Made by a program: the position numbers and the translations under genes
Notes under the pieces: model-generated
What the model was told of the DNA's origin: nothing
Seen by the model: the letters and a program-made list of their open reading frames with translations, nothing else
Databases searched by the model: none
Shown here: positions 1 to 28,871 of the stretch, in pieces
Layout of the letters: every line of letters starts with the position of its first letter
Position numbering within the stretch: the stretch's first letter is position 1
DNA from: Polytrichum commune
Lineage: Eukaryota; Streptophyta; Polytrichopsida; Polytrichales; Polytrichaceae
Assembly: GCA_950295325.1 (NCBI GenBank)
Contig: OX485809.1
Location: 5,518,001-5,582,000 of the forward strand
DNA: 64,000 nucleotides
Direction of reading: 5' to 3'

Positions 1-192
1 AAAATACATGTGCCATGTCAACTGTGACATGCAGCAGTGCATGAGGATGTGTTGGACATGATGTCCCAAATGACATTCTTTCTGAGATATACGCGTCACA
101 TGTGATATTGCAGATGATGGCCATCACACTTTTGCATCACCTTTATATACATGCAAGGGCCATTTCTAACCACAATTTAATGGCACACAACC

Positions 193-1047
193 TTGTGCAG
201 GGAATTTATGGCAGCTAGAGTTTCGCGTTGGAAAGAGAGGAAGGCCTTTCGGAAAATGTGTCGCCGCCGGCATCCAACTTTGGCAGTGCGGTATCCGTTG
301 GAACTACACGATCTTCCTCCCTTTGCAACATGGTTGACGTCGCGTCTGTCACGTCAGCGTTCCTCCGGCGAAGTTGTGGACGTCGATGTTGCGCAATACG
401 CGCAACCTCCCGAGCGATATGCAATCTCACACCAGAAAATGTATGCGTTTGGCATGCACTTCCGAGTACGAGGTGCTGAGGATGGCCTCGTCACGCGCGA
501 TTCATGTGTGGTGGCCTCATTTACACGACAAATACCATGGGGCTTGAGAAATGGGCGATCCATAGAGACAACCGAGGAGTATGTGGGCTACATCGAAGAG
601 ATCTTGGAGCTAGACTACCGAAATCATTGCACCACTGTGCTAGTGTGCGATTGGGTTCGCCCAAGTGCAGATCCTCGATACCCTAACATCACACGGGATC
701 AATATGGTTTCACCGTTGCGAACTTCAACCGCATGGATGGCAAAGTGCACTCAAACTCTTTTGCATTTCCATTGCATTGTCAACAAGTTTTTTTCTCCAA
801 TGACCCGACGAAGCCAGGATGGAAGGTTGTATGTCGCACGGACGTGAGGGGTAGACGTGGGCAACTACAAACCAACCAGACCTTACCGCGCATAATCGAT
901 GTCGGCCACGATGCTGACTTTGTGGGTTTACAACCACAAATTCAAGATGTAGAGCCCACTAGAGAGCCCACAACGGACGGCGGCATGCACATCCCAGCCT
1001 CGTTGGATGTTCGTAGGGAAGAAGAAAACGAAGGAACACAGTATTAG
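193..1047 (+). CDS. CACTA (En/Spm) TNP2-like transposase, C-terminal fragment (DUF4216-like)
   Basis: This is an open frame of 284 codons; the first ATG is at 208, and the frame also extends 5' of it. The middle carries the pattern of the DUF4216 region found at the end of CACTA TNP2 proteins: a segment around MYAFGMHFRVRG where the family has its 'inGyrF' block, then EEYVGYIEEILELDY, then VLVCDWVRP, then QQVFFSND followed by GWKVV. Catalytic parts of the transposase are not present in the window, so this is a 3' piece of an element that begins to the left, or a decayed copy. AG dinucleotides just upstream (near 191-200) could be a splice acceptor. The family assignment rests on motif memory, not on a search. 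Confidence 0.65.
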   Translation: MCREFMAARVSRWKERKAFRKMCRRRHPTLAVRYPLELHDLPPFATWLTSRLSRQRSSGEVVDVDVAQYAQPPERYAISHQKMYAFGMHFRVRGAEDGLVTRDSCVVASFTRQIPWGLRNGRSIETTEEYVGYIEEILELDYRNHCTTVLVCDWVRPSADPRYPNITRDQYGFTVANFNRMDGKVHSNSFAFPLHCQQVFFSNDPTKPGWKVVCRTDVRGRRGQLQTNQTLPRIIDVGHDADFVGLQPQIQDVEPTREPTTDGGMHIPASLDVRREEENEGTQY

Positions 1048-2212
1048 TGGTTACAACCCAAAGCACCTACAGCAACGTCACATCACACATGGCATGCAAT
1101 GTATAAGGTTGCGTCACAAGGGACGCCTTGCTGGAGAGGAACCGACTGTCAAGGCTGATGTCTACTCGGGTGTCCGCGGAGACGTCCTTTGTGTTCAAAC
1201 AGACGGATGGTCATAATTTTCTAGGCACTAAGATTTTCCAGTAGCAGTTGCTCGTCTATATGTGGAATGTGGCCACGAGATCCAACGTGGGCACTCCCAC
1301 GTTTGGCGCATGTATTTTTGGAATTGTGAGAGCAATGAAGTGCCATATTTTGCTTGCAAAAGTCTTCCCTTGATTTCCTTGTGTCTAAATGTACAAATAT
1401 ATAACCTTTGAAATCCTTTGAAATCAAAATCAACATATGACAAACTAAATTATAAACAAGTGAATGAGAAAATATTCCTTTTGTAGCAAAACTTGAAATT
1501 TCATAATTTTTCTATTTTAATCCAAAGGGAATTTTTCCACTTTAATTAATTATTCGGCTAACATGTGTTGAACCAGCTATATATGAACCTACGGTATACA
1601 ATTGTGGTCCCGTATGTCTACCTTATGGCAATTAGAGAATGACTCAACCACCCCCGTGTTTTTTGGCTCATCCGCTACAAATATTTGAACGGAATTCGGG
1701 AGAATAACATGCATGCCAAGAACCATATTGATGCACCGTGAGAAATTTATGTGGCATTCCCTCAAATTTTTGGGAACAAGTTTGTCTTTTATAGCCAACC
1801 ACACATAGTTGAACATTCTCCAACCTTTTTTTCCCGGGCAACACTTTAAGTCTGCCCGCCGCAACTTTATACATGCCGTGGATAGACCTGTGGGGATGAC
1901 GTGGCGTTAGCGGCCTTACAAACGGCCCGACGCAGGACGTCAGCATGTTTTAAATGACATCCACAAGAACATGGCTATCCTTCCTGACATCGCCATGTCT
2001 TGGCCCATGATCTGTCATGTTTCACGCAACATCCAATAAAATCTGCAATTCTGTGGGCATTTATTGCCGAACATAGTGACATCTCGGAAGACATCACTCG
2101 TTTCCCCAAAACGACCCCAAAAACGCGGGTTTCTTATAGTGGGGGAGGGGACTACTATCTCCCTATGACCCTCCCCATACTCGCCCAAGATCCAACCCAT
2201 ATCCCTAGTGGT

Positions 2213-2376
2213 TGGCCGATATCCGCCGATATCCTCAGGGGGACGGTTAATATCCGGGGGTTTACACCTTCAACCCATCATTTATCTGTTAATTCAAAAT
2301 CAAGACCAGTCGATATCCGGTTTCCTCCCTTTATAAATTGGATGCTCATCCGACTACCCTCTTTTATATCCGGTTA
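2213..2376. repeat. Cluster of GATATCCG-type short repeats
   Basis: The octamer-like motif GATATCCG or its close variants (AATATCCGG, TATATCCGG) occurs at about 2217, 2226, 2249, 2312 and 2367, all in the same orientation. CACTA elements typically have arrays of short subterminal repeats that bind the element's own regulator. With a CACTA transposase tail 1.2 kb upstream, this cluster could be the subterminal region of the same element. No CACTA terminus was found beside it. Confidence 0.4.
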
Positions 2377-2954
2377 TTTGCCCATAGCAATAGGTTCATT
2401 TGTAATGAACCATCGGTTATCCTCATTCACTAGAACAATGTATCCTACAAAATGGGGGTGAACAATAATTCTTGTGCATAGTGCCGAGTGTATAACTACA
2501 CCCAAATTTCCAAATTCACCCTGAATGTATGAATACTAAACAAATAAGCTTAATTTGTTCGATGGGTCCATGGAATATAATTGACATATTCTAGGGTCAT
2601 AGAACTGACCCAAATGGCTTAATAATGTTATGAAATCTATGTGGTACAAAAATGTATCTATTATGTCTGGTTCTTTTTTTAAAATAAGTTTTCAAAGGAA
2701 AAAATGAGACATTTTAGTTCAAAGTTTCACACAGGTTTTAAAGGGTCATTTTCATTTTTCTTTCCTTTTTTTCTTGTCAAATAAAAAATTACAAGTAATA
2801 AGATAATATCCAACAATAATTATCCTAAATTTTATCATAATAGCATAAATAGGGGATAATAGCATTAATTCCCACTCACATCATTTTGAGCCTCAACATT
2901 AAGTGTACCCTTAGGATTTGACTGTTGAAGCTAAAATAACTAAACTTAACAAAT

Positions 2955-3400
2955 TTTGAGCATGTATAATTCAATCTCTTGTAAACACATATCTATTTGG
3001 TGTCCGTTCTTATTGCCACACCCAATTGGAAACTACACACCACCTAAATATAGGTCTTTGTTAATTTAAGTGAGAGAATTAGTCTTGCTTACCTTAAGGT
3101 ATGCGTGCCTAGAATTGACATTTTTATTTAATTCCTAAACATGTGATTAATACAAGATGATAGTAATTGAATTCAAATCCATGTTGTTACCATTCTCTTC
3201 ATAATTGGAGCTTGGTTTAACTAGTGTCCTTTTCATAATTAGAGTGATAATTTCTTTCTCCTTGAATGATTGTATATGACCATTGTAGACTAATAATCCT
3301 TAAATAATTAACTTGGAAGTTTGAGCACGTAGTTCAATTTCCTTCAGCAAATATTTTTTTGGTCTTTATTCTTAGATGAACGCAACTACCCCCAAGTATT
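2955..3400 (+). repeat. Two degenerate copies of miniature element family M1
   Basis: Segments at about 2955-3110 and 3183-3400 share word-level similarity with the M1 element described at 49680. Shared words include a GAGCATGTA-type word followed by CAATCTC, TTTGGTGTCCGTTCTT, CACACCACCTAAATATAGG and a CTTACCTTA-like end. They are too decayed to define ends. Confidence 0.4.
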
Positions 3401-3435
3401 TCACTATCTCATAGTTTATGTGATACGTGCGTAAA

Positions 3436-3491
<56 letters not shown>
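3436..3491. repeat. (AT)n(GT)n microsatellite
   Basis: A perfect run of AT dinucleotides passes directly into a run of GT dinucleotides, about 56 bp in all. Confidence 0.95.
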
Positions 3492-3493
<2 letters not shown>

Positions 3494-4317
3494 CTAATCA
3501 TGTGTTAATTCAAAGAATGTCTCTTCTATGTTGTTTGAAATCACTGTACGTGTGATGTTTTACGACACCTTTTATCAACAAGCTTAATAAGCTTTATTTT
3601 GCACTACGTGAATAAAATTGATGCTAAATTATGTTGATTATTTTTCAAAAAAAATCTTGTGCAATCAAAGAGTACCCTATAATAGGTCTCACCCTATTTC
3701 TAATAGGTTCCTAGTGAAGTACCCAAAAACTTCCCACACCACTCTAAAAAAAAGAAAATTCAAATTAATCAATTATTTGAATTAGTCTTGCTTGCTTTGT
3801 CTCAACCTTTAAAGTATAGAGAAATAAAACAGTGGTTGGATATAAATAGGTACACATGAATTCAATATTATTATTATTATTATTTTCTCATCATTTTGGT
3901 AAGACGAGAAACCTTGAATGTAGGAACAAAAATTTGTTTGACGGTTGTTCGGACAAAAAAAAATTAAAAAGGACTTTGTTGACATTAGTGAAGATTGAGG
4001 CAAAATCGGCCAATGTTTTGTTGGCCAAGCTCTTTTATGTTGAGGGGATGTTAAGTATGGGGCCTCTCTCTCTCTATATATATATAAAGCATATTTCTTT
4101 TGTTATAAGACATGCAAATCAAAATGCGGTTGTTATCCCACATGACTTTGTAATGGGTAATAGGGATATATGCAACAATCGGAGAAGTTTACAAGAAGTA
4201 TGCCAAAAAATAATGCAACTCTTATGACATCACATGTAGACAGATAGTATAGGTGAGCATGTAGGAGAGTTGGAGATTTGGAAGTAGAAATCATTTGTCT
4301 TTGGTTTGTCGAATGTA

Positions 4318-4485
4318 AAGGCACCACGGGCCTTGGCTTGGTGGTTAGGGCTCATGGCCCCCAATGAGGAGGTTGTGGGTTCTATTCCCCATGCCGGCGT
4401 GGTGCTCACCACCTTGGTCCACCCAACTATGGTGGGGGGTCCTTGGACCTTGTTGTATGTATGGGTACCTCAGAGCCCTTTGGGG
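4318..4485 (+). mobile_element. tRNA-derived SINE, 5' part
   Basis: The head has the layout of a tRNA gene with internal RNA polymerase III promoter boxes: an A-box-like TGGCTTGGTGG at about 4334 and a B-box-like GGTTCTATTCC at about 4378, roughly 33 bp apart. A non-tRNA body follows. It contains the inverted pair CACCTTGGTCCACC / GGTCCTTGGACC and ends in CCTTTGGGG. The gypsy element described next begins directly after this TGGGG. TGGGG recurs at 14332-14336, so the SINE body may continue from 14337. Confidence 0.6.
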
Positions 4486-4579
4486 TGTCGTGTAAACTAA
4501 GATCGTTAAACACAACAGATCGAGTGTCGTTGTCAACATCAATTAGCAAACTAAAATGTTAAACAACCACCTCTTCAAG
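4486..4579. repeat. Direct repeat A', left of the 3' LTR core
   Basis: This 94-bp segment starts TGTCGTGTAAAC and ends CCACCTCTTCAAG. It is repeated as 107 bp at 5016-5122, on the other side of the same LTR core. The second copy has a 13-bp internal extension. It is absent from both sides of the other LTR core at 13.9-14.3 kb. Confidence 0.85.
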
Positions 4580-4580
4580 A

Positions 4581-5013
4581 TGAGGGTTTCTCTCTCCAAG
4601 CTTAAGAAACTAAAATGTCTCCTTACAAAGCTTAAGAAACTCTAAAATTCACACACAAGAGTCAAGCTATCTCTCACTCCACGAAGGGAGAATCCAAGAG
4701 TGCAAGTGGTGGAGAAAGAATGCAAAGGCTTTACTCATAATCTACTACACCATAGCCATGAGAAAGCAACAACAAGCTCTCTCTCTCTCTCAAAACACAC
4801 TCACAAGACTTGACTTGACAACAATGGCAAGTCAAGAGGCCTTCCTCTCCATACAACCCCAATCCTATGTGGAGTTCATCAATGGAGTGGATGAACAACT
4901 AACTAGGACTCCCAATGGAGTCCGTTACTCGTCCCAACACACATGGACTCCTAATGGAGTCCATTTACTTCTAAATTGACGTAATTTAGCCCCCGATGTC
5001 ACCTCACGTGACA
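4581..5013 (-). repeat. 3' LTR core of the DNMT-bearing gypsy element
   Basis: The segment begins TGAGGG and ends GTGACA on the plus strand, so it is bounded by TG...CA in both directions as expected of an LTR. It matches 13898-14330 at 432 of 433 positions; the only difference I found is T at 4970 versus C at 14287. It contains two 18-bp imperfect palindromes of the form GGACTCC-YAAT-GGAGTCC at 4906-4923 and 4945-4962. An antisense open frame of 73 codons (4758-4979) is intact in both copies but resembles nothing I know. Confidence 0.9.
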
Positions 5014-5015
5014 GA

Positions 5016-5122
5016 TGTCGTGTAAACTAAGATCGTTAAACACAACAGATCGAGTGTCGTTGTCAACATCAATTAGCAAAATAAAATAGCAAACTAAAAT
5101 GCTAAACAACCACCTCTTCAAG
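5016..5122. repeat. Direct repeat A, between 3' LTR core and polypurine tract
   Basis: This is the second copy of the repeat at 4486-4579. It sits directly beside the polypurine tract, so the functional 3' LTR may include it. See the finding on LTR asymmetry. Confidence 0.8.
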
Positions 5123-5133
5123 TGCCCCCACTA
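5121..5133 (-). other. Probable polypurine tract
   Basis: The minus strand reads TAGTGGGGGCACT here, just upstream of the 3' LTR region in the element's sense. This is the usual position and composition of the plus-strand DNA primer of LTR retroelements. Confidence 0.5.
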
Positions 5134-5415
5134 GCAGATAAGGAGCCCCTCCAATCGGCTAGGAACAAACACACACATTGGTAGAGTTGTTGAACATGAT
5201 GAAGTTGTTGCTACATCTATACATATTTAATTGGGTAGTAGTAATCGAAGGAATTAAACTCGTGATTGATAAAGTAATCCAAGAACTGTAGACTGGGTGC
5301 AATGTGAACCCCATCCTTAATCGCCTTCAACAATTAATGTTGAATTCTTGGATAACTCTTTCAATATGGTCTTAATTCCATAAAATTTCCAACCAACTAA
5401 ATAACAACTTCACCA
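5134..5415. other. 3' untranslated region of the DNMT-bearing gypsy element
   Basis: This lies between the end of the integrase/PHD frame and the polypurine tract. I see no coding or structural signal. Confidence 0.5.
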
Positions 5416-7434
5416 CTAAAACATGTGGTAAACATCCACAAAATTCTCAATCATGACCATTAACGGCCACGGAATGAGAGGCTTTCCGACAACGAGGACA
5501 AACCCAATTGCCAGAAGGAAGAGTAAAAAGGGAGGTGTCAAACATGCCATATGCCATCCACGTTGACATTGGTCGCACAATAACATTGTTGCAGCTCCTT
5601 TCTTCTCTCCACAAACATAACAAGGCAGACCCTGTGGTACAATTGCCAACTCGGGATGCACAGAGCCGTCGATGGGAAGGTGACATGGAGCACAATTCTT
5701 TGAATGCTCACGACATTCCCGTCTATGCTTGCCTTCAAGCAATAATATACCACTTGGCAAGACATCTTTTATCCGCAAAATCGTGCGCCCAGCCTTGACA
5801 TCCAATGTCGTAGGCGCCTCCCGTTGCAAGTAAACATAATCCCCCTTGGAAAATCTACGAACCTGAGGTCGATAAGCTCCACTGCGGATCCGGGCATACC
5901 GTAATGTATCACGATGTTGAGCAATATTTAAGTTCTCCATAGCCATAGGCATGGCCTTTTGGAAGAACGTTGCTCGGTCATGAAGACATTGAGCCCAAAC
6001 ATCTGGATCATCCAAGTTTACCACGGGAGCCAATTTCTCTCGCACCGAGCTAGGTAAAATTGGTTCCCGTCCATACAAGAGTTGGTAAGGACTATAGGAT
6101 GCCAAAGATGCTTGCCTGCTGAAACGATAACCCATTGCTATCCATGGTAACATCAAGTCCCAATCGCGATGGTTGCCATGAAGCAATCCATACTTCCGCA
6201 AACCGCGCTTAACTGTCTGAACAACTCGTTCAGCTAAACCATCTACCTCATGGTGATCTCTGGAAGTCGTCCGATGATCAATCAAAGCCTTGGTACACAA
6301 AGCCTCGAAAGATCCAAGGAATTCTCTCCCTTGATCCGTCAACACCTCTGCAGGTGCTCCAAACCGTGCCAAAACTCGATCAAGAAATGCCATAGCCGCC
6401 AATTCTGAGGAATTTTGGGGAAGAGCCACGAGTTCAATCCACTTACTAAAATGCTCCACCATCACAAGCACATACTTGGAACCACGTGGAGTGATAGTAA
6501 GCGGTCCGGCAAAATCCAAAGACCAACGATATCCCAAGCCCATAATAGGTAAAGGCTGAAGTTGAGATGACAAAGTATTAAAACTTGACCTGACCCGGTC
6601 ACATACCTCACACCGAAAAACATAAGTGGCAACCTGTTGATACATACCAGTCCACCAATATTGGTTGCGCAACATAGAGTGCGTCCTTCGCACTCCAAAA
6701 TGTCCAAGCTCCTCGTGCACTTGCCGCACCAAAGAAGCTCTTTGATCTGGCCTTGGAACGATGCGCCTCGTTCCGTTCGGCCACACACGAAATAACAAGC
6801 TGTTTGCCCAAAGAAACCTTGTTATCCGGTGACTAACTCTATCTCGCTCCATAGCAGATAGTCCAAGAGGAAACATCCATTGTTGAAGTTTGTGCAAGAC
6901 CGCCTGGTCTTCCCACACATCACTAACAACGAGATATTTGTCAACCTCCTCATCTTGTTCTTCTACAAGGATCTCAGCAGCCAATCCCGACATCATTGTG
7001 AGATATGTGGCAGCATGCCAACCCGACACTGCCTCACGATCACAATCTCCATGCCACCTGGCTCCAGTTAAATCCTCATCTGAAGGGCTTGGATTGCGAG
7101 ACAATCCGTCAGCATCCAAGTTGGCAATTCCTGCTCGGTGAACAATTTCAAAATCATATTCCTGAAGTAACAATGCCCACCTAGCAAGTTTCCCGGTGAG
7201 CTTATCTAATTCCATAAGCCATTTTAAAGGCTGATGATCAGTCACCAAAGTAAACTTTTGCCCATACAAATAAGGTCGAAAATGTGCAATGGCCCAAACG
7301 GCCGCCAAGGCCTCGCCTTCATAAGAAGAATAATTAGATTCAGCACTATTATTGCTTCTAGATGCATAAGCCACCACATACTCCTTTCCCTCTTCATCTT
7401 TCTGTGTCAATACCGCTCCCAATCCCACTGCACT
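5416..7434 (-). pseudogene. RNase H, integrase and C-terminal PHD finger of the gypsy polyprotein
   Basis: The segment follows an in-frame TGA at 7435-7437. RNase H is seen from GLGAVLTQ through YASRSNNSAE, EALAAVWAI, LVTDHQPLKWL and ANLDADGLSR. Integrase follows, with the H2C2 zinc domain (HEELGHFGVRRTH ... CEVCDRV) and a catalytic core: D in WSLDFAGP, D in VLTDQGREF, and E in a LAERVVQT block where the family usually has the catalytic glutamate. Instead of a chromodomain, the C-terminus carries a PHD finger: CYVC (5611-5622), LLCDQCQRGWHMAC, then CPRC (5489-5500). The last zinc pair is in another frame because one base is missing at about 5527; in that frame the protein would end at 5447. 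PHD fingers typically read histone H3 tails, so a targeting role like that of chromoviral chromodomains is plausible but inferred. Confidence 0.88.
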
Positions 7435-7548
7435 TCAATCCGTGTGCAATTGAAAAGCTCTAGACACATCCGGGCGTCGAAGCACCGGCGCTGAACCGAG
7501 CCTCTGCTTCAATGTATCAAATGCCTGGTGTTGTTCCCGACTCCAATT
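7435..7548 (-). pseudogene. RT-RNase H connection of the gypsy polyprotein, bounded by two stops
   Basis: This 38-codon piece is in frame with both neighbours and encodes the block around WSREQHQAFDTLKQRL and APVLRRPDVSRAF that precedes RNase H in gypsy elements. TAG (7549-7551) ends the preceding piece and TGA (7435-7437) ends this one. The TGA stands where LHTD-W-S would be expected, so TGG to TGA is the likely change. Confidence 0.75.
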
Positions 7549-8357
7549 CTATGGTTGGTCTTTCTCTGTGAGAATGGTAAGAGGTTTGGCAATCAAACTA
7601 AAATTTTTGACAAACCTCCTATAATAATTTGCCAATCCTAGAAATGCACGAAGCCGTGGTACATCACTAGGTGCGGGAATTTTGTGCAAAGCATCCACCT
7701 TCGCCTGTTGCACACCAAGACCGCCAGGAACAATCATGTGGCCTAAATAGGACAATTGATCATGGAAAAACTTACATTTTCCATGATGTAAACAGAGTCC
7801 CCACCGTTGAAGTCGTTCAAATACCGCTTGTAAATGTCTCACATGATCCTCTGGACTATTACTAAAGATGATAACATCATCAATGTAACATCTAGCAAAC
7901 GGCAAACCAGCCAATAATTGGTCCATCACCCGCTGAAATTCAGCTGGTGCATTCTTGAGACCAAATGGCAGAAATTTCCAATGATAAAGTTGATCCTTGC
8001 CATCTTTATCAATTCCCCAAAATGCGGTCTTCACCCGATCACCCAACAACAAAGGTAATTGGTGATAACCAGACCTCAAATCCAAAGTGCTAAAGATTCT
8101 AGAAAATCCTAGTGCATCAAACAACTCCTCCGGCATCGGCATTGGATATCGATCCGACTTGGTCTTGCGGTTCACTGGACAATAATCACCACACATCCGT
8201 TTTTCCGTCCAGTTGCCAAAGATATCCTTCTTTGACGGCATAACCGTGGCACAAGCATACTCTCCATTGGAGAGTTCAATCAATTCCGCTGCCAATAACT
8301 CTTGACATCGAGTTTGAACACCCAACCTTTCAGAGGTACTAAGTCTGTACGGCCTGT
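7549..8357 (-). pseudogene. Reverse transcriptase core of the gypsy polyprotein
   Basis: Canonical gypsy reverse-transcriptase blocks run in order: RMCGDYCPVNRKT, FSTLDLRSGYHQL, KTAFWG, FLPFGLKNAPAEFQRVMD, the catalytic YIDDVIIFS (7860-7890 region), and FLGLANYYRRFVKNFS. The catalytic aspartates are intact. The frame is entered from the upstream piece by a one-base shift at about 8357 and leaves at the TAG at 7549-7551. Confidence 0.92.
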
Positions 8358-8590
8358 CTAAAAATAGGGTGGTCGTCCTCGAGTTGAATACGAACAGGTT
8401 TACCTTTATATCCTTCAAGATCATGAAGACTAAAGGCAAAACAATTACGGTAAGAGCGAATAAATGCCCGTACCTTTCGTGCTTCGGCACTAGTAAGCTT
8501 TGGCCCCACTTCAATTGGCCAATCGTCAAACTCCGTGGTTTCCTTCTTCATAGAAGGATTGCCACTTGGTGCCAGCACAGCCTGTGATTG
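8358..8590 (-). pseudogene. Reverse transcriptase N-terminal region of the gypsy polyprotein
   Basis: This is in frame with the methyltransferase piece upstream but separated from it by TAG at 8591-8593. It encodes the lead-in to the RT domain (EARKVRAFIRSYRNCFAF, then the DLEGYKGKPVRI and DDHPIFR blocks). The frame then runs to a stop at 8339, because one extra base puts the following PYRLST block in another frame. Confidence 0.8.
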
Positions 8591-9526
8591 CTAGTCCGTG
8601 GAGAGGGCAACACCTTTGCCCCCATCATCTGCACTTGAATCCAAATGCGTATCCTCTCCACTACAATCAGTTTGTGTAGCTAAATAGCTACCCACATATG
8701 AAGTATCACCAAGAAATAGAAGTGGAAACATTTTATGGGCCTCCAACTTCCCAAACTCTTGGGCCAAAGCCGAAAAAACACGTTGGGCTCGAAGCTCTTC
8801 CGCAACATGAAGTTTTAAAGAAAATAATCCCTCGGTGTCATTGACCTCAATGTGATCCTGGGATTGTGGCTCCATTGCCCCCTGACCATTGTTCTCTACC
8901 CTCAGAGTAAGCAATTGGTCATCCATACGTTGTTGAGCAGCAAGACAAATTCCAATTATCCACACAATGCTATTAAGATCCATAGCTTGCCCCAATAGGA
9001 AACGTCTCTGACCTTCCTGAAGCCCGTGAGCAGCCGTGGTGCATGTAGGAAAACCCATGGCGCATTCCCGCTCATCTGTCATAGGCTCCTTATAAGTTTG
9101 GAATTTTGAATCCCAAACCATGCCAGGTCCACGAGATCGAAATGCAAAAGACTGTGGATATGTCACAAAAGTAGGTAGTGCACCTCTCGGAATTCCCACC
9201 TTGTTAATTAATGCAAATGGCAAGGTGTCACCCTTGGTAACTGCTAAGGAAACACGATGATCATCTAAAATGTCATCCACCTTGCGATCCATAAGGCGGG
9301 GAATGCGGGCAATCGCCGCTGAAAGCACCCGAGGTGATACCAAGTTGGTCCAAAACCAACGAGGCCGATGAGCAAATGATCCCAAAGATGCAGTATCCAG
9401 AAATGTTGGAATACCCAGAATTTGGTTAATGTACTCACCACCCTTCACCACTTTGTGCCGGGTATCACCCAATAATGGTACATTTTCGAAAATGTACCTT
9501 GGCGGAGTTGATTGGTGGGTAAACCA
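8591..9526 (-). pseudogene. C-terminal half of a C5-cytosine DNA methyltransferase plus linker, gypsy polyprotein
   Basis: This continues in the same frame as the next piece, after a single TGA at 9527-9529. Just after that stop comes PPRYIFENVPLL, which carries the ENV of methyltransferase motif VI. Next are HRPRWFWTNL (motif VIII region, as in DNMT3 and DRM enzymes), TYPQSFAFRSRG, ERECAMGFPT (motif IX region) and RRFLLGQAMDLNSIVW (motif X region). From about residue 175 onward a linker without recognised domains leads to the RT. The motif order and the short target-recognition region resemble DNMT3/DRM-type de novo enzymes more than DNMT1 or CMT, but only a phylogeny would decide. Confidence 0.85.
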
Positions 9527-11246
9527 TCATTGCGTCAATCGTATCAAATCCGCAAACAAACTAGACCTAGGATCATCCAATGCCTGGCCAGTTCCTGCCC
9601 GCGAATGGCCTTGACAAGGCCATCCTGCAATAATCAAATCCACGTGGTCCAACCTTCTCAAATCCTCATCACTAATCATAGTGACATCTTGAGGAAGTTG
9701 ACCACAACATCCATGAATGGCAGAGGCTGACAATTGTGCGGGGTATCTCAACAACAATTGTTGGATGTGGTGTCGGACGGCTCTGTTGGCTGCATACCCA
9801 TTGTCCACATGAATGTATCGCCAAACTGTAATTCCAGCTTCCAAAACTGCCGCCAAACCTGTGCCAATGCCTCCAAAGATCTCCACAAGGACAATACCTT
9901 CAGGTGATGGTTGCCAACGAATGGGTTGAGCAAAAGAAAATGAGGATGAAGTTGGAGGTGCCTCTCCAAGCTCTAAATCTGCTACAATGTGTTGACAATG
10001 GTCGGATAACTCCTTAGGAGTTCGCCATGGTGGAGGTGGATCCTTGAAATGTCGAGCAGGAATTTGAAAAGATGGTAAAAATTGTTGTTCTGCCGCATTA
10101 CAACTGTAGTCCATTGTTTCCTCCAATAAAACTGGAGCACAAGGCAAATCTGCAACTGAACCGCTGCAACCAAACATTGCCTCCGCAACCATAGTCATAG
10201 CAGTGGCTGCAAATGTGACAGGAATAAATACCTTCCTGCCATCTCCAGTGGACCATCCCGGTCTAATCCATGCCTCTTCCGTCCAATTATCCAAACCAAA
10301 GCCAAGTGGGTAAAGAGCTTGCTGACCAACAAGTATATCATAGTTGGTAGCATTAGTAACAACACACTTCATTGACAAATGAATGTAAGTAGGCCCTGCC
10401 CCCACATGAAAAATCAAACGTAGAGGTGCCTTGGTGTAACCTGTTGCACGTTCAGTGCCCCCTACTGAAGTCACAATAGTGAATGGACAAGGATCCAAGT
10501 TTGCTGGCGTCAATCCAAGAGTGTCAGCAAGTCCTTTGCCAATCATAACCGGTTGAGCACCGGAATCCATCATAACTCTCAGTGGTGTAGCACGGATAGT
10601 GGGCATATCCGTGCGTGAAACGACAAACAAAGATTTGTCGTTCATCAGCCGTACAACTCCAGGTTGCAAATTATGTCGTTCGCGAGCAGGCCTTGCAGAA
10701 ATGTCTGCAAGATATGCCGCTCCCGACGCATAATTCGAAAATGACGTATCCACTGCTGAAATTGATGCTGGAGGAATATCAGTTTGCTTACCAAAAGCAA
10801 TGATCGCCGCATCCGCAAGACTCGCTCGCAAATTGGCTAAGTCCTCCACCTCCTCAGCCACAGGTACGTCAACCACAGCTTGGGATACTTGAAGGGATGG
10901 CAAATCCGCCTTACCTTCTAACATTCTCCCAGCTAAATGAAAAACTGCAGCAGGCTTGAAATCCGAAGCCATAAATTCCGAACCCGAGAAAATTGGCATA
11001 TGGAGAATTTTATATGCCAATGCCTGCGTAACATCCTTCGAGATGGAATCCCCATCTCTCAAAGGTACAGGGTTTTTAGCCCCAACAACAGTGGTGTCTA
11101 CCAATCCAAATGAAAGAGGTAAACGTGCTTGACCAATTTGATCAGCTGGTCCGACATGGCGAGGATGTAGCACCTCGTTGCTACCACCACTCGTGGAAGC
11201 CACCGCATCTGCCAATGTTTGTAAGCGAGTAGAAGCCGCCGCCACA
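9527..11246 (-). pseudogene. Aspartic protease and N-terminal half of a C5-cytosine DNA methyltransferase, gypsy polyprotein
   Basis: The 572-codon frame begins at 11245 in the gag overlap. The retropepsin site is VMMDSGAQPVMIG (about residue 222), followed by YDILVGQQALYPLG, as in gypsy proteases. The methyltransferase starts at about residue 448 with LVEIFGGIGTGLAAVL (motif I, S-adenosylmethionine binding). It continues to VDLIIAGWPCQGHSRAG (motif IV, about residue 541), which has the catalytic Cys in PCQ. The frame stops at a TGA at 9527-9529, between motifs IV and VI. The domain thus lies between protease and reverse transcriptase, inside the polyprotein rather than beside it. Confidence 0.9.
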
Positions 11247-12687
11247 CCTCTCCAGCTGCTCCAAACATATACATATCCGAACCCGAGGTGCCACCACCCG
11301 CATGCGGCTCAGAAATTTGAGCAAAAGATGCAGAAGATTTGAGCTTTTGCTCAAGCTCTGCCACCTTAGCCTCAAGACTCTGCTCACTTGGAGACTTTCC
11401 AGTGACATAACTGGCAGGCTGCATCTCAGGATGAAGTTGGAAACAATGATCCACATCGTGATTAGTGCCACCACAATGGTTACATTTCAATTGTCTCTTC
11501 TTAGAATTGTCCCCTGCCTTTACTGGTTCCATCTTTTGTTTTAATTTTCCCAAAGGCTGAGTTTTCTTCTTCTTAGGACAATTGGGATCATTCTTCGAAT
11601 GACCAGCTTCTCCACAACCCCAACAATGCAAAATCTTTTGTTCCTTGACGGGTTGAGTCTCAGCTAAACTACTAGTAGCTGTGACAATTCTTCTTGGTTT
11701 CGGACTCTCTGTCATCCAAGATACCATATCCGTGGCATCATGTTGGCAAAGAGCCCGATCACATCTCTCAACCACGGCAAATGCTTGTGCAAGCGTAGCT
11801 CGGCCCTCGTAGTCGAGGATAATCCGAGGTGATGCCAACTCAAGTAGCCGCTTGTCAATCTTAGACAAAAAGATTTTAACAAGCTGACTCTCAGCAAAAA
11901 CATCTCCCGACTCCACAGCAAATCGCGCGAGTCGCGTATACATGGTCCGTGGAGTATCATCCTTCTCTCGGCGGAAATCCTGGATGCGCTGCATCTGGTC
12001 TCGCCGAAACCCACCATACTCCACTTCCAAATGTGCGACAAATTCAGTAAGGGGATTAAACGGAGGTGGTGGACCAACAGCCGTCAATGCTGCCTGTGTA
12101 GCACGTGCCACCCGTGAAAGGGTTGCCGTGCTACTGCTAGCCACCATTGGCCCAAGTGCCAGTTCCGTGTCCTTAGACTCCGCCGGCGATTCCTCCTCCT
12201 TTAAGGTGGGTGGAGCTAAGGTAGCAACCGCCCCATCCTTAAGGGCTGAAATGAGCTCAACCCGAGCCTCCCAATACTGCTCCACCTCCCGAAGTTGTCG
12301 CTGATGACCCTCTGTCCAGCGTTCATAAGTTTGGAGTGCCTCATACTCCAAATGCTGAGGCAGAAGTTCAAAGGCATACCAATCATTGAAATTGGAAGAC
12401 CTTTGACGTTTCTCCTTAATCCAGGTACGAAACCGGAGTTTCCAATCGGGCAAGGAAATGCCCCCAGCTCGACCTGAAAACCGATCACGCACTGAATTGT
12501 GGCGATCGTCCTCCATTTCGTCAAACGTGCCAACACTCCAAATCCGAAGCCTACTAGTAGTGTCCAACGCCGAAATAGGCTCAAAAGCCTCGTTGGTATC
12601 TACCTCTGGCTCAAGATTTGTGGTATGCACGTCCTCCAAGTAATCTGGTGATGGAGATCGATAATATCGGCTCCTAGTTTGCACCAT
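11247..12687 (-). pseudogene. Gag with two zinc knuckles, gypsy polyprotein
   Basis: The frame starts at an ATG at 12687 and runs about 480 codons before the protease frame takes over; the original frame remains open to 11098. It has a capsid-like helical region (WKLRFRTWIKEKRQR; YTRLARFAVESGDVFAE; KIFLSKIDKRLLEL) and two nucleocapsid knuckles. These are CWGCGEAGHSKNDPNC (near residue 353, a CX2CX4HX6C variant) and CNHCGGTNHDVDHC (classical CX2CX4HX4C). A short coiled-coil-like stretch, EAKVAELEQKLKS, follows. The protease frame is one base off at about 11246-11256, which could be a small indel or a recoding site. Confidence 0.85.
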
Positions 12688-13897
12688 AAAATAATCACTT
12701 GAGTACCTGCAACTATCTACAAGGTAATGGCAACCTGCACCTGTTGCGGGCTATCTAAATGGCAATCCCTTGCCAAATGCCAAGTGTTTATGCCCCCAGA
12801 ATTCCAAAATTGTGCAAGGTTTGAGATTGGTAATTAAAATGAAAAATCAGCGTTGAAAAGGCTCATTTCCAAGGTGATTATGGACTCCCATCAACAAACT
12901 AATTGCACCAATGGACTCCTAGGAAGATTTCACACAAATTAGGCTCAAATTTCACTCCGTTCGGAGTTAATTTGCTCCCAAAAACAAAAATCAGCGTTGA
13001 AATTGCTAATTTCAGCAATGATTTTGAATTCCAATCAACAATCCAATTACACCATTGGATTCCTTGGCAAATTTCACACAAGATAGGCTCAAATTTCACT
13101 CCGTTCGGAGTTAATTTGCTCCCAAAAACAAAAATCAGCGTTGAAATTGCTAATTTCAGCAATGATTTTGAATTCCAATCAACAATCCAATTACACCATT
13201 GGATTCCTTGGCAAATTTCACACACGATAGGCTCAAATTTCACTCCAATCGGAGCTAGTATGCCCCCAAATTTGAACCTCAAAGTTTGTGAGAAGTGAAT
13301 GCCAAGTTTGAAAGGTGAAAGGAAAAAAAAAAAAAAAAAAAAAACCAAAAACCAAAAATTTATTTAAAAAAAACAAAAAAAAACAGAGGGAGGCTTACCT
13401 GGCCTGGCTGGCGCCGCCCGCCCGCCCGTGGGGCCCGGCCTGCGCACGCACGCCCGGCCCGGTTTGCGAACGCCGCCCCTTGCAGAACCGGAGCTCCAAG
13501 AGGGTCCGGTGAGCTCCGGATCCGTCCGGAGCTCAACAATTAAAAACAATTCGGATTTTTATTTTATTGTTGTTTTATTTTATTGTTGTTTTATTTTATT
13601 GTTATGTTTGTTTTAAAAGAACAAAAATTAAACTTTGCTTCCACAATTTGCAAGCAAGAAAGATGTGACTTGAGATTCCATTTGGTCTCAAGATTCAACC
13701 ATCAACAATTCAAGAAAACACAAAGAGACACCAAAAGAAAAATGTGAAGATTTTTCTCAAAATCTTCTTGAGGGTTGCAAGGAATTGCAAACTAAGCTTT
13801 CATACACTTGTATCACTCATTTGCTCTCATTACTGGGCCATTCTAGCTCAGAAATACAACCAAAAATGAAAAATTTGAGTCGAATTGTTGTCAAGTG
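12688..13897 (-). other. 5' leader of the DNMT-bearing gypsy element
   Basis: This lies between the 5' LTR core and gag. It holds the 144-bp tandem repeat described separately, an A-rich tract (13321-13384), a GC-rich block (about 13409-13530) unlike the surrounding DNA, and a TTATTTTATTGTTGTT repeat at about 13559-13605. I could not recognise a tRNA primer-binding site next to the LTR. Confidence 0.5.
12843..13275. repeat. 144-bp tandem repeat, three copies, in the gypsy leader
   Basis: The word TCAGCGTTGAAA recurs at 12847, 12991 and 13135, giving a period of exactly 144 bp. Copies two and three are nearly identical; the first is more diverged. Because 144 is a multiple of three, a frame stays open across the array on both strands (12903-13298 and its complement). 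The translated sequence has no recognisable features, so I do not call it coding. Confidence 0.9.
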
Positions 13898-14330
13898 TGA
13901 GGGTTTCTCTCTCCAAGCTTAAGAAACTAAAATGTCTCCTTACAAAGCTTAAGAAACTCTAAAATTCACACACAAGAGTCAAGCTATCTCTCACTCCACG
14001 AAGGGAGAATCCAAGAGTGCAAGTGGTGGAGAAAGAATGCAAAGGCTTTACTCATAATCTACTACACCATAGCCATGAGAAAGCAACAACAAGCTCTCTC
14101 TCTCTCTCAAAACACACTCACAAGACTTGACTTGACAACAATGGCAAGTCAAGAGGCCTTCCTCTCCATACAACCCCAATCCTATGTGGAGTTCATCAAT
14201 GGAGTGGATGAACAACTAACTAGGACTCCCAATGGAGTCCGTTACTCGTCCCAACACACATGGACTCCTAATGGAGTCCATTTACTCCTAAATTGACGTA
14301 ATTTAGCCCCCGATGTCACCTCACGTGACA
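13898..14330 (-). repeat. 5' LTR core of the DNMT-bearing gypsy element
   Basis: This copy begins TGAGGG and ends GTGACA on the plus strand, with the same length as the copy at 4581-5013. Unlike that copy, it has no flanking A repeat. It is followed by G and then TGGGG, which matches the sequence left of the element. Confidence 0.9.
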
Positions 14331-14331
14331 G

Positions 14332-17300
14332 TGGGGATACCATGTCTGGTATCTTCAAGGCACTAGTGGCTAGCTAGGAACTAGTATAGTGTGTCACTAT
14401 AGTGCCCATCCTCGAAAGGGGAGAGTAGTATTGTCTCAATGTCCCCTTGTCCAGTGGGCATTGGTTCATTGACATTACGAACGGACACTTTATTCACGCC
14501 GGCCCCTTGCTAAAAAGGGACCGGAGTTTCTGTCTATCTATCTTTGTCGAATGTTTCCCTAGCACATAGAGTGGCCAAAGCGGGACTATTTGACAAAATG
14601 GCAATTTATGAAAGATATCAAAGGCGAGTTCCTTGGGGAGAAACCTTGGAGGGGGGATTGTTTGGAATACAGTCCCAAGCTTGTATTGATATTTATGTGA
14701 GCACCTATGGAAAGTGAACACGTAAATAAATGAATAAAGAAACTATCATTTTTTATCAAATAATAATAATAACTATAGTTGCATGGGAAAGCAAACCAAG
14801 TTGTGCCAAATTAGATGAATATTTACTCAATATTGTGGGAAAATATATATCCACGTCAAGTCGATAGGTCTACACATCATCAACTACACATTGCAAATAA
14901 AGATAGTGTTACATGATTAAAAAAATAAATTGCTACATGGAATACTACTGGAGACAATAAATATTGTATCCAAAAATTTATGCCTATAAAATTTACTTTT
15001 ATCGGCACCAAAATGATGAAGGTAATGGTAAAAATTAGGAAAAGATAGATCATAGTCAATCTCAAAATCATCTTTGAAGTAAAAAGAATAGTATTCGCCA
15101 TAGTGACAGTTTCTAGGACAATAGCGTTGATTGGAATCAACGTAGGACTATCAATGCTCATCTGTTGATATGAACAAAGATTGCAAAACTTAATGTAGTT
15201 AACAACACCATAGCCATAGATCCCCCCCCCCCACTCTCCTAGTTCATTCTTAAATGTTGCATGGACAAATCTATTAAAGTTTCTACCTTAGAAAATGAAT
15301 GCTTTTCGGAAGGTTTGAATAACAAGAATATGCAAGCTTGAAAAGTTTTCGTGCAGAATACAACAATTTCAACCTCACAGCAACAGGTGTGTGCAAATCA
15401 AGTATTTTATATTCCCATTAAAGTCCATTTCAAAGTCTAAAACAAAGAGGTAGTCAACTTCCCCTACTCCAACTCCCCCCTAGGGCCTCTGCGCCTCCAT
15501 GTTAATGGAGGTCATTGTTTTTCCATTCAGGGCAGAGGGTCCTAAAACCAACAACTTCAAATCTTGCACAACAAGTACTCCAGTACATATTTGCTATGAA
15601 GAACATTCCCCCGCAGGAACAGTTTTGGGTACTCTACTAATGATATTTTGAACCTTTATAACTTTTGCATATGAAGTCCAAAGAAGGTATACTTTGGTGC
15701 ATTGAGATCCCTTTTCGATTGCTAACTAAGATGTACTTTAGTTTCTTTCAATGTAGTGATTTTATATGTACTCTCAACACTTAAAGTGTCGGTTTAAGAC
15801 CGTCTACCTTAGTGGTTACCGCCAACTTGGCCAACACATGGAAAGGTGCCCTAAATACCTAGAAGTCATCATTAGAGTTAGAGTGCTTTCCACTTTTAGT
15901 ACATTCCATGCGAAGTGCGTTAGCCTCAAGTAGCACATCAATTAAGGATTTGTGTGGGTGCATATGTACTTTATTAGGGGGAGTGCCTTTTGTGTCTTTC
16001 TTATCATTTGCGCAAAACAAATATGACTTTTAATTACTACAACTTTCATAACATTACTCAACTCCTTAGTTGCGCTCCCTCAAACCATGTATTGGGCGAG
16101 CATAATTCTCCTTTAAGTATGGGAATCCATGTTTCTAGGGAGCATTGAAGTTGTGTACTATAAGGTTTTTGACAAACAACTATAATTTACTAAATATTTT
16201 CTTAATCATATCCTCTTTCTTTGGAAAGAGACCATCATCTAGCTGCTTAATAATCTTATGTTGAAGACATGGCTACTGTGACATTTATACAAATTGGAAC
16301 CTAACTAAACCATAATCATCAACTCTAAGTCAAGCACACCAACGTATACTTTTAGAAATAACAATTCTTATTAATTGTACAATTTTGGAATCTCATGCAT
16401 ACTAACGTGATCCAAGTTTATTAAGGCTTACTTTAACTTGCTAAAAAAATGGGGCCTAATTATGGTGAATCAACTTTCCAACTTGTCATACTTCAGTGGG
16501 TGGGTAAAACTAGCGTCATGTAAGGTATAAGGTGCTTAAACCAACACTTTTAAGCAATTTAGCCTATTTTAAAAGTCCGTTTGGATTAGTGATATGCATG
16601 ATTGGCTTAGCAAATTGGCTTAGACATAGTAGAAACAAAAATAAAATAAATTGCACATCGTGGATATACTTCAAATGTTTGAAGTCACCTACCCTAGCTT
16701 CCTAAATCTGTCCCTAGACTCCCACAAACGGTTCCAAAACCATCTTGACGTTTTTCCAAAACACTCTCATTTTTCACCCAAAATCAACCCTACTTTCTCC
16801 CAAACCCACCCCCACCTTTTGCCTAGACTGCCTCAACACTAAAACCGACTTTCCACCCAATAAAAAAATTGAGCTCTTATAACTTTGCATGTGGGATCTT
16901 AATAAATACATATACATGTAAGTAAGCCACCCATACGTACATTCCAATGCTTGCTCAGATCCAATCCCACTTTCTTCCAAAACAACCTCGCATTTTCCTG
17001 CAACCACCCCGCTTTTCACTTGAATATGCCTATGCTTTGCATCAGAGACTTTCAAATAGGTTGACCCTTAAATACTCAAGCAACCTCCAAATGGTTCGCC
17101 ACCTAATATTCTACTAGGGTTTGCAACCCACTAGGTGGCAATATACGTGGATTAAAAGGCATCAACTGGTGTAGGGTGGTGTCCACTACCATGTGGCCCA
17201 AAATAACATATAGAAATCTCATACTTCAAGCATGTGGGGATTTTTGTTTGGTTGGCATTGCTTGTTTTGGGGAACGGTTCCATGCATTGCTCAAATGTAG

Positions 17301-19346: not shown

Positions 19347-19784
19347 AAGGGTAGATGTGTCTTAAATGGTTACATTTGCCAACTAGCCCACTTCTTCTAG
19401 GACGTGAAACACGCGATTAAAAGTTAGTACAAGATTACACGTTAGCACATCGAAATCGAAACCAAAACCGAAACCATGGCTATGAGTAGGCCCACTTTCC
19501 TCATTAGTTTTTGGAGCTCATATGAATATCATATTCATCATCCAAGTGAAGATTCCCATGTTCATTAAATGGTCTTATAGACCTCCCCCCTCCCCCGAAA
19601 TCATGTTGAAGTATGCGTATCATATTTTCAAACATGCATCTCAATCCCTTTCAAGCATATGTCTTTTTTATATCCGTACTTGGAACCGCACCGAACCTCA
19701 TACCACTCAAATATAAGTGTCTTAAAAATAAAAAGTATAACAAAATAAAAATACCTAGATAAGGGTTGTCTACTTTACCTTACG
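19347..19784 (+). mobile_element. Miniature element M1 copy
   Basis: It begins AAGGGTAGATG and ends with AAGGGTTGTCTACTTTACC. The typical interior words are present: CCACTTCTTCTAGGAC, GGAGCTCATATGAATATC and CTCAAATATA. It passes directly into the 138-bp tandem at 19781. Confidence 0.75.
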
Positions 19785-20055
19785 AAACATGAACTAACAA
19801 TCTTTGTGATGATTTGCAATTACTAACATGACGAGACAATTCTCAAGCCGATCCAACGGTCATAAATTGTGTGTAGATTGGGTGTACCCACCATATGACC
19901 ACGTGCCTTACCTTACCTTACGAAACATGAACTAACAATCTTTGTGATGATTCGCAATTACTAACATGACGAGACAATTCTCAAGCCGATCCAACGGTCA
20001 TAAATTGTGTGTAGATTGGGTGTACCCACCATACGACCACGTGCCTTACCTTACC
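19779..20055. repeat. 138-bp tandem duplication
   Basis: The segment starting TACGAAACATGAACTAAC at 19781 is repeated at 19919 with a few base changes (for example TTTGCAAT/TTCGCAAT and CATATGACC/CATACGACC). It is bordered by short CCTTA runs. The near-identity suggests a recent duplication. Confidence 0.9.
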
Positions 20056-27433: not shown

Positions 27434-28871
27434 CGTTAGCCTGGTGATCGAAGTGCATGGAGACATCAGTCAGTCGGTTGACGGGAAAATTTTAGACCAA
27501 GTGAATCACTTTGAACTCAAAAGTACATACAGTTTGCCTTGACTTTAACCCCGGTACAGACAGTGATTATAAAATTCATACCCATTGACATCAATGACAT
27601 CAATGACATCATTCATTGATCACAGCCCAGATATGCCACCTTTTGCAGCCACAGGATTCTACTCACATTCTGTACTGCAAATGACTTCCCCTAACTTTTC
27701 CCACGACTTCAAGTTTCTCATACTTAACCCACTTGAACTGGAAGACAAACTGAATTGAATGATATTCGTCCTTGTTGTCGTACTTAAGTTACTGATAATG
27801 GGATGCGTTACCCTTGCTGGCAGTCTGTGTTTAGGAATCTGTGTCAGGGGCCAATTTAATTAGACTCAAAATTTGACCCAAGGCTGTGCAGACACGCTTT
27901 TCCTACCTCTTCCCTAGTATCAAAATCTCCTAAACCCCATAAGATAAATTCACACAGAAAAAGAATTTACTGGGTTAAAATTCTCACTCAGCTCAAAATT
28001 TGATCCGAGGCTGTGCAGACACGATTATTCTACCTCCTCCCTCGTACCAAAATCTCCTAGACCCCATAAAATAAATCCACACAGAAAAGGAATTTACTGG
28101 GTTAAAATTCTCACTCAGCTCAAAATTCGATCCGAGGCTGTGCAGACACGATTATTCTACCTCCTCCCTCGTATCAAAATCTCCTAGACCCCATAAGATA
28201 AATCCATGCAGAAAAAGAATTTACTGGGTTAAAATTCTCACTCAGTGCGTACAGTTGATGCCCTCCCTAGATCCTCCTGCAACTGGGATCCAATGACTTA
28301 CTCACCGCTCGCTTCAAATTCTCTTAACTTAAGCTTAACCCACTTGAAAACATAACTAGACGACCCCCAAGGATTAGATTTGGGTCAACCCACCCATACA
28401 CTCGTTCCTTGTTGGATGCCTAAACCCTTGCCTCCAAGGAACCAGTGTAAGGGTTGGTTCACCCCAGCCCAAGGATTACCTATCATCATTCTGATGCTTG
28501 CTGAAGTAGTTACTGCGGGCCGGTTTACACTATGGACCATGAAGTTGGACCAGGGCTTTGCAAGGCAGCTGATTGGTTGCTGAAGTTGTCCTGGGACAAC
28601 TTTGGTTTACACTAAGGAAAAGATGTCAGAGGGACCATGAAGGTCGAGGTCCCCTAAATATAATTTTTAAGGCCTAATAAATGCACTGACATGGTCCAAC
28701 GGTTTTTGTGGTGAGAGAGGCAAGAGAGGTGGTCTGGAAGGAAAAGGCAAGGGCCCATAGTAGAGAAATGTTGTTTAGAAAACAATTTAATAAATCTACC
28801 CTCTATGTGCCTTAATCATATCATAACCCATGCGACATAGCATCACTACCTTGCCCTACCCCTTAAAGCGG
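27434..28871. other. Intergenic stretch between HMA gene and inserted LTR element
   Basis: This contains the 127-bp tandem array (27866-28246) and, at 28518, a GGCCGGTTTACACTATGGAC terminus related to the Harbinger-type MITEs at 38.2 and 47.4 kb. No gene was seen. Confidence 0.5.
27866..28246. repeat. 127-bp tandem repeat, three copies
   Basis: GGCTGTGCAGACACG starts at 27882, 28009 and 28136, an exact 127-bp period. Copies two and three are closest; the unit ends TTAAAATTCTCACTCAG. Confidence 0.92.

Follow-up and report, generated by a model that had tools for sequence, protein, structure and literature searches.

Transposons that carry their own DNA methyltransferase (DNMT) are a known but rare kind. 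KnitGypsy-Dnmt3 of Klebsormidium nitens and the DNMT retroelements of dinoflagellates were reported by de Mendoza et al. (2018, PMC5890265); streptophytes and dinoflagellates are named again as hosts of DNMT-bearing transposons in PMC12344493, and a 2019 paper gives such transposons as absent from "land plants, such as tracheophytes". Here we describe a Ty3/gypsy-type retroelement of Polytrichum commune that carries a DNMT3-type cytosine methyltransferase (MTase). It forms a single unit on the minus strand, at positions 4486-14330 of a 64,000-nucleotide stretch of contig OX485809.1 (positions 5,518,001 to 5,582,000; this whole stretch is hereafter called the window), and its first open reading frame (ORF1) encodes Gag, a protease (PR) and the MTase. 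The best explanation, which as a whole we consider probable, is that this copy is defective and comes from a recently active, high-copy, gypsy-type family that has the DNMT3-type MTase as a standing coding part and falls in one lineage with KnitGypsy-Dnmt3. The family is presumably a land-plant member of this rare kind, and its expression layout does not appear in the available portions of the texts compared.

KnitGypsy-Dnmt3 is the closest published element, sharing with the window family gypsy-type domains, a DNMT3-type MTase and DIRS-like repeats; the combination of such repeats with gypsy domains is given in the legend of Fig. 4 of PMC5890265, and that paper also reports purifying selection. 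The K. nitens proteins KFL_013780020 and KFL_009030040 match our family by sequence and by the MTase slot between PR and reverse transcriptase (RT), and we infer that they are copies of KnitGypsy-Dnmt3. The window family differs in having a land-plant host, in being nearer to bryophyte elements and in its demonstrated target duplications, and the terms PHD and readthrough, which matter below, are not in the available text of PMC5890265. The dinoflagellate elements SymbioDIRS-Dnmt3, with two coexisting domain orders, and SymbioLINE-Dnmt are likewise retroelements with captured DNMTs, but they use tyrosine recombinase or LINE machinery (PMC5890265), whereas a DDE-type (rve) integrase and 4-bp duplications are found here. 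DIRS-like elements (PMC5890265) share the A-coding-B-A-B repeat plan and differ in the same way, the window family having an rve integrase, target duplications and no tyrosine recombinase by Pfam. No description of bryophyte elements of this kind was found in the literature searched, as far as its texts were available, subscription papers and most preprints lying outside its scope.

The methyltransferase and its element family

The MTase domain of the window copy extends from about 8918 to 9916 on the minus strand. It was identified by a significant PF00145 match, obtained in the window and in other copies, by its motifs, by alignment with an open copy (93.4% identical over 361 aa) and by the structure model of that copy. 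Motifs I, IV, VI, VIII, IX and X follow one another unrearranged, DNMT3 is the best match in a PDB search, and the predicted model agrees in fold and motif order with the catalytic domain of mammalian DNMT3A/3B, at 20-26% identity in structure alignments, although here the domain lies inside a retroelement ORF. A DRM-type enzyme was rejected because motif I precedes motifs IV-X, so that the rearranged order is absent; the presumed host DRM exon (L060) has a motif X-like stretch ahead of motif I. DNMT1 and CMT types were also rejected, as neither occurs among the 55 PDB matches at E ≤0.1, in which DNMT3 is listed first. A host DNMT3 gene was sought via DUF3444, and no MTase motif was found in the two loci concerned (L075 and L076). 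Scanning viral_contigs with the MTase alignment gave 28 loci with a best-segment identity of 26-55%, mostly partial matches.

The host genome (408 Mb, 64 contigs) was searched with PF00145, and 123 matches were scored among 353 first-look candidates. The 59 MTase loci that we examined, the window among them, were picked partly by high score and long frame: one is the presumed DRM exon and the others belong to two subfamilies, whose best segments are 90-100% identical to the reference copy in one and 54-65% in the other. By our own openness criterion the MTase is open over its length in 30 of the 59 loci. A further search with the ORF1 end of subfamily 1 found 144 sites with at most two mismatches (reversed control, 0). 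Ten copies, chosen for long open frames, were fetched end to end, each as two overlapping pieces; all ten have the same layout and an open ORF1, and in copy L029 gag, PR and MTase make one ORF of 1365 aa from its ATG. ORF2, which runs from RT to a PHD finger, follows in the same frame directly after the TAG stop of ORF1, with 1047 aa, and is open in 7 of the 10. The order in the family is gag-PR-MTase, then UAG-CAR-YYA, then RT-RNase H-integrase-PHD, and the succession PR-RT-RNase H-integrase with an rve integrase is that of Ty3/gypsy elements. Related sequences also occur under bacterial names: contig CADCWO010000201.1 (L105), binned with a cyanobacterial metagenome-assembled genome (MAG), has a 68% identical MTase and a 1047-aa ORF2, and protein P0002, a host-like retroelement sequence, is filed under an Obscuribacterales bacterium MAG. 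Both are most likely contamination.

The original prediction, of a cytosine MTase inside a gypsy polyprotein between protease and RT, is confirmed, and the PF00145 match is significant. That the MTase is part of the element is borne out by all ten fetched copies, the second subfamily, L105 and relatives from Klebsormidium to Marchantia. MTase and RT trees agree, and the proposed land-plant lineage of DNMT-bearing elements is supported. Three points need amendment: RT lies beyond a conserved UAG and is probably joined to the MTase just by readthrough, the repeats are split instead of plain long terminal repeats (LTRs), and the window copy itself is defective.

The UAG stop and the possible target of methylation

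In the window, ORF1 ends after the MTase in TAG (8593-8591) followed by CAATCA (8590-8585; together 8585..8593, minus strand), which fits UAG-CAR-YYA. All ten fetched copies have TAG with CAA-T/C-CA as the next six nucleotides (nt), and among 48 further loci TAG-CAR-YYA stands in 41 of 41 readable sites across both subfamilies (CAATCA 19 times in subfamily 1; CAATTA 16 and CAGTTA 6 times in subfamily 2), the remaining seven being six unreadable sites and the DRM exon. L105 reads TAG-CAATCA. Among the 100 listed of the 144 subfamily 1 sites, 98 have TAG and two have TAA. In tobacco mosaic virus (TMV), CAR YYA after UAG is essential for readthrough, 32% readthrough of the TMV site was obtained in an assay, and rice gypsy elements are mentioned as readthrough candidates (PMC2754532). 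Compared with this tobamovirus type I leaky stop, the family has UAG CAA UUA, CAG UUA or CAA UCA, with CAA CCA in one copy, and here the predicted leaky UAG would separate Gag-PR-MTase from RT. Because MTase synonymous sites are near saturation between the subfamilies, the stop site is most likely held by selection. With a conserved UAG of the leaky type placed after the MTase, readthrough is probably the only way in which RT becomes attached to it, and the retention of UAG-CAR-YYA across two subfamilies suggests that the MTase is probably made at the level of Gag and RT at a fraction of it. A gag-pol frameshift as a family trait was rejected: among the copies compared, only that of the window changes frame between gag and PR, and the ten fetched copies are open there.

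The sequence gives good grounds to suppose that most ribosomes would stop after the MTase, yielding Gag-PR-MTase in bulk, and that a minority would read through the UAG to make a fusion with RT and integrase, leaving far more MTase than RT in the particle. More speculatively, the MTase might methylate cytosines of the new cDNA inside the particle or just after its exit, so that the copy would arrive already marked and could pass as resident silenced DNA. Integration might also be guided to particular chromatin by the PHD finger with which the integrase protein ends.

Alternatively, the MTase might act mainly in trans on the host genome or its chromatin rather than on new cDNA, for example shifting host methylation or hiding all copies. 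We regard this as somewhat unlikely. The MTase is probably in excess as Gag-PR-MTase, and a large share might then act apart from RT; the protease could free it; fusion to Gag, however, favours particles, and the observed/expected CpG ratios (element 0.66; window positions 1-4485, 0.74; window positions 14331-64000, 0.47; two host loci, 0.45) single out neither target. Transitions per site are 1.85 times as frequent at CG as at CHH.

Relatives, origin and constraint

Two protein searches, with 62 hits and with 36 hits among 8000 scored candidates, found relatives in Marchantia polymorpha, Calypogeia fissa, Sphagnum troendelagicum, S. fallax and K. nitens and among environmental proteins. A third search, with ORF2 as query, gave 530 hits at E 1e-100, of which the best 120 were used; these added Riccia, Closterium, Haematococcus and Tetrabaena, of which Riccia and Haematococcus showed no MTase in the proteins listed. 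The MTase is present in 115 of 191 listed proteins and shares one ORF with RT in 57. In K. nitens, KFL_013780020 has the order gag-PR-MTase, with 34% identity across 87% of the MTase (E 3e-43), and KFL_009030040 has the order MTase-RT-integrase; the reported contig size of 7497 is common to KFL_013780020 and to KFL_013780010, which has RT, and this suggests that the pair has the same two-ORF layout.

The MTase occurs in two places. It precedes RT in the host, Marchantia, Sphagnum, Klebsormidium and Closterium (order 1), and lies between RNase H and integrase in environmental proteins and in the chlorophyte Tetrabaena socialis, there as a partial MTase match (order 2). A branch sets order 2 apart in each tree, with an SH-like approximate likelihood-ratio test (SH-aLRT) value of 99 for RT (53 rows) and 81 for the MTase (50 rows), both of them quick trees of hand-chosen rows with 52 listed RT proteins and 45 of the 115 listed MTase proteins. 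This sister clade, with P0116, P0132, P0135 and P0174 as examples, has T. socialis as its named member. For 31 proteins that hold both domains, the MTase and RT trees have 13 of 28 splits in common (200 label shuffles: mean 0.24, maximum 2), and the distances correlate at 0.53 (0 of 9999 permutations as high); the correlation is 0.91 within order 1 (13 proteins) and weak, 0.24, within order 2 (18 proteins; 523 of 9999 permutations). This agreement indicates that the MTase is an old, largely co-inherited part of the element and no passenger. In a quick tree with two distant, partial outgroups and no plant DNMT3 gene, DNMT3A together with the host DRM exon is separated from every element MTase (SH-aLRT 96).

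On this evidence a single DNMT3-type capture appears likely. A fuller history is possible and is offered tentatively: one ancient capture by a green-lineage gypsy element before the chlorophyte/streptophyte split, with the lineage surviving in algae and bryophytes, would have been followed by one move of the MTase from before RT to the RNase H/integrase slot, and in the bryophyte branch the leaky UAG would put bulk MTase into particles, where cDNA would be pre-methylated. Independent captures of DNMT3 by bryophyte and Klebsormidium elements seem unlikely to us. An independent acquisition was inferred for the K. nitens lineage (PMC5890265), and our tree is without plant DNMT3 genes; on the other side stand the same slot between protease and RT, the position of the element MTases apart from DNMT3A and the DRM exon, which is a weak test, and the agreement of the MTase and RT trees.

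It is very unlikely that the UAG is a plain stop, with RT and integrase made by re-initiation or from another RNA. The two TAA codons among 100 sites speak for it, but CAR-YYA fits exactly in two subfamilies and L105 while the second codon varies between Leu and Ser (once Pro) with the YYA rule kept, ORF2 stays in frame directly after the UAG, and CAR YYA is described as essential in TMV by a paper that also mentions rice gypsy candidates (PMC2754532).

We give little credence to an MTase that is no longer an enzyme and serves as a structural or decoy part of Gag. The pooled pN/pS among recent copies and an altered motif IV in at least one relative, P0069 (WECQG), would suit such a role. Against it, the Cys, Pro, Glu and Asn of motifs IV and VI and the Asp of motif X are kept in 30 of 30 open copies, subject to the bias of picking, and MTase dN/dS between subfamilies is 0.125 (190 of 209 pairs, the others saturated), with dS itself near saturation at a median of 2.3. 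Median dN/dS is 0.41 within subfamily 1 (152 of 171 pairs) and 0.27 within subfamily 2 (51 of 55 pairs), counting pairs with dS >0.02. If a Ka/Ks below 0.2 is taken as a criterion for the KnitGypsy-Dnmt3 lineage, the near-saturated comparison between subfamilies lies below that value and those within subfamilies and among pooled copies lie above it. Several observations weigh against the explanation preferred above. Pooled pN/pS among recent copies is 0.57 for the MTase (10), compared with 0.09 for RT (8) and 0.24 for integrase (9); selection of the loci by PF00145 accounts for part of the conservation of motifs IV-VI; among the 30 open copies, motif VIII Arg has been lost from 1 and 2, and a motif I Gly from 1; CpG depletion as a mark of self-methylation is not seen at the element's ratio of 0.66; and in yeast the KnitGypsy enzyme produced no methylation, an outcome that the authors of that study call inconclusive (PMC5890265). 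The low dN/dS between subfamilies together with the recent pN/pS points to an MTase kept over the long term and now under looser constraint than RT. A later separate insertion of the MTase, or a host gene beside a gypsy element, has the broken frame in the window as its sole support and virtually no chance of being right, refuted as it is by the continuous gag-PR-MTase ORF of L029, the layout of all ten copies and the MTase-RT ORF of 57 relatives.

Split repeats, integration and the window copy

The complete element reads A1-coding-B1-A2-B2 (4486..14330, minus strand, as are the features below unless stated), with ends set by repeat comparison against ten other copies and termini TGTCACG.../...ACACGACA. 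The left, LTR-like repeat A1 (13898..14330, 433 nt) is identical to A2 (4581..5013, 433 nt) at 432 of 433 positions. B1 (5016..5122, 107 nt, by repeat comparison) is joined to A2 by a 2-nt link (5014..5015), TC in the window and GC in the eight other copies having A2, and B2 (4486..4579, 94 nt) is shorter than B1. The left flank (14331..14336) has two extra nt, GT on the plus strand, and then GGGG, a presumed copy of the 4-bp target duplication that matches the presumed right copy, GGGG on the plus strand, at 4482..4485; the extra bases outside the TG terminus (14331-14332) occur in the window copy and not in the ten others.

Inside the element, an untranslated leader with three 144-nt tandem repeats (12836..13267, no strand assigned) precedes the gag ORF (11098..12687), which has two CCHC-type knuckles (11578-11625 and 11443-11484). 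The aspartic protease (10316..10597) has MDSGAQP at 10550-10570, and its matches to PF13975 (E 3.6e-4) and PF13650 (E 4.1e-4) are both below the curated cut-off. ORF2 is present as an RT piece (7549..8529; PF00078, E 5e-30), out of frame with the preceding stretch, and an RNase H and integrase (H2C2, rve) piece (5416..7428; PF17917, PF17921, PF00665), with the PHD finger at its C end (5498..5622; PF00628, E 2.2e-6); the PHD finger of another copy matches PF00628 at E 2e-10 over 47 of 47 positions. The window copy is defective: gag and protease are in different frames, a premature TGA (9527..9529) interrupts the MTase, a further frame change lies ahead of RT, RT and RNase H are separated by a stop, and the PHD finger is broken, with its end in another frame. 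The single difference between A1 and A2 implies a recent insertion. As few changes are expected since then, the copy may have been mobilised when already damaged, by the proteins of other copies. Elsewhere in the window, tandem repeats of 127 nt (three units, 27865-28245) and 138 nt (two units, 19771-20046) occur, and an Rfam scan gave no match at gathering cut-offs.

The A-coding-B-A-B arrangement is found in the window and in 8 of the 10 fetched copies, and the 3' end of one subfamily 2 copy reads B-A-B, its B1 and B2 being identical over 106 nt. The other two fetched copies (L009/L010 and L025/L026) stop after B1; this A-coding-B form could come from B1/B2 recombination or from a one-unit form integrated as such. 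Target duplications of 4 bp are perfect in all ten, namely GAAG, TTAT, TAGC, CATC, ATTG, ACTT, TCTT and GAAG in the eight copies with A2-B2 and AACG and ACTT in the two without. TG...CA ends with a short target duplication agree with Ty3/gypsy; simple terminal LTRs with a tRNA primer site next to the left one were not found. In the window and in 7 of the 8 copies compared, the 30 nt that follow A1 hold no TGG primer site; in the eighth copy the stretch compared is still inside a duplicated part of the repeat. We therefore call the family gypsy-type, strictly gypsy-like, on domain order and sequence relatedness rather than repeat structure. Plain LTRs were rejected, as A occurs once at the left and once between two B copies at the right, and so was DIRS membership, with rve found, no phage integrase (Pfam, E 0.01) and target duplications present.

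Split direct repeats are a feature of PAT-like elements, and REM1 of Chlamydomonas was considered as what we take to be a split-repeat gypsy relative. REM1 is a chromovirus with a truncated, reversed integrase (PMC2774666). The B1-A2 junction of our family reads ACACGACA-GC-TGTCACG, two element ends head to tail, and is present likewise in subfamily 2 and L105. For DIRS-type elements, restoration of lost terminal bases from such a junction has been proposed; here, terminal bases lost from the RNA might be restored from the B1-A2 junction and the product inserted by the DDE integrase. The PHD finger at the end of ORF2 could read histone marks at integration; it is listed in many relatives, including proteins without a detected MTase. 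P0074, a eukaryote transcriptome protein (EukProt, Trinity), is 65% identical over 98% of ORF2, which indicates transcription of this kind of element in some organism.

DNA methylation is usually directed at transposons, and these elements carry the writer. Related sites number well over a hundred in the host genome, which also has recent insertions, and there are named relatives in liverworts and Sphagnum; because bryophytes are tractable in the laboratory and their methylomes are known, why transposons would methylate becomes testable in plants. The leaky stop, if true, would give a sharp prediction of dosage, with the MTase made at the level of Gag.

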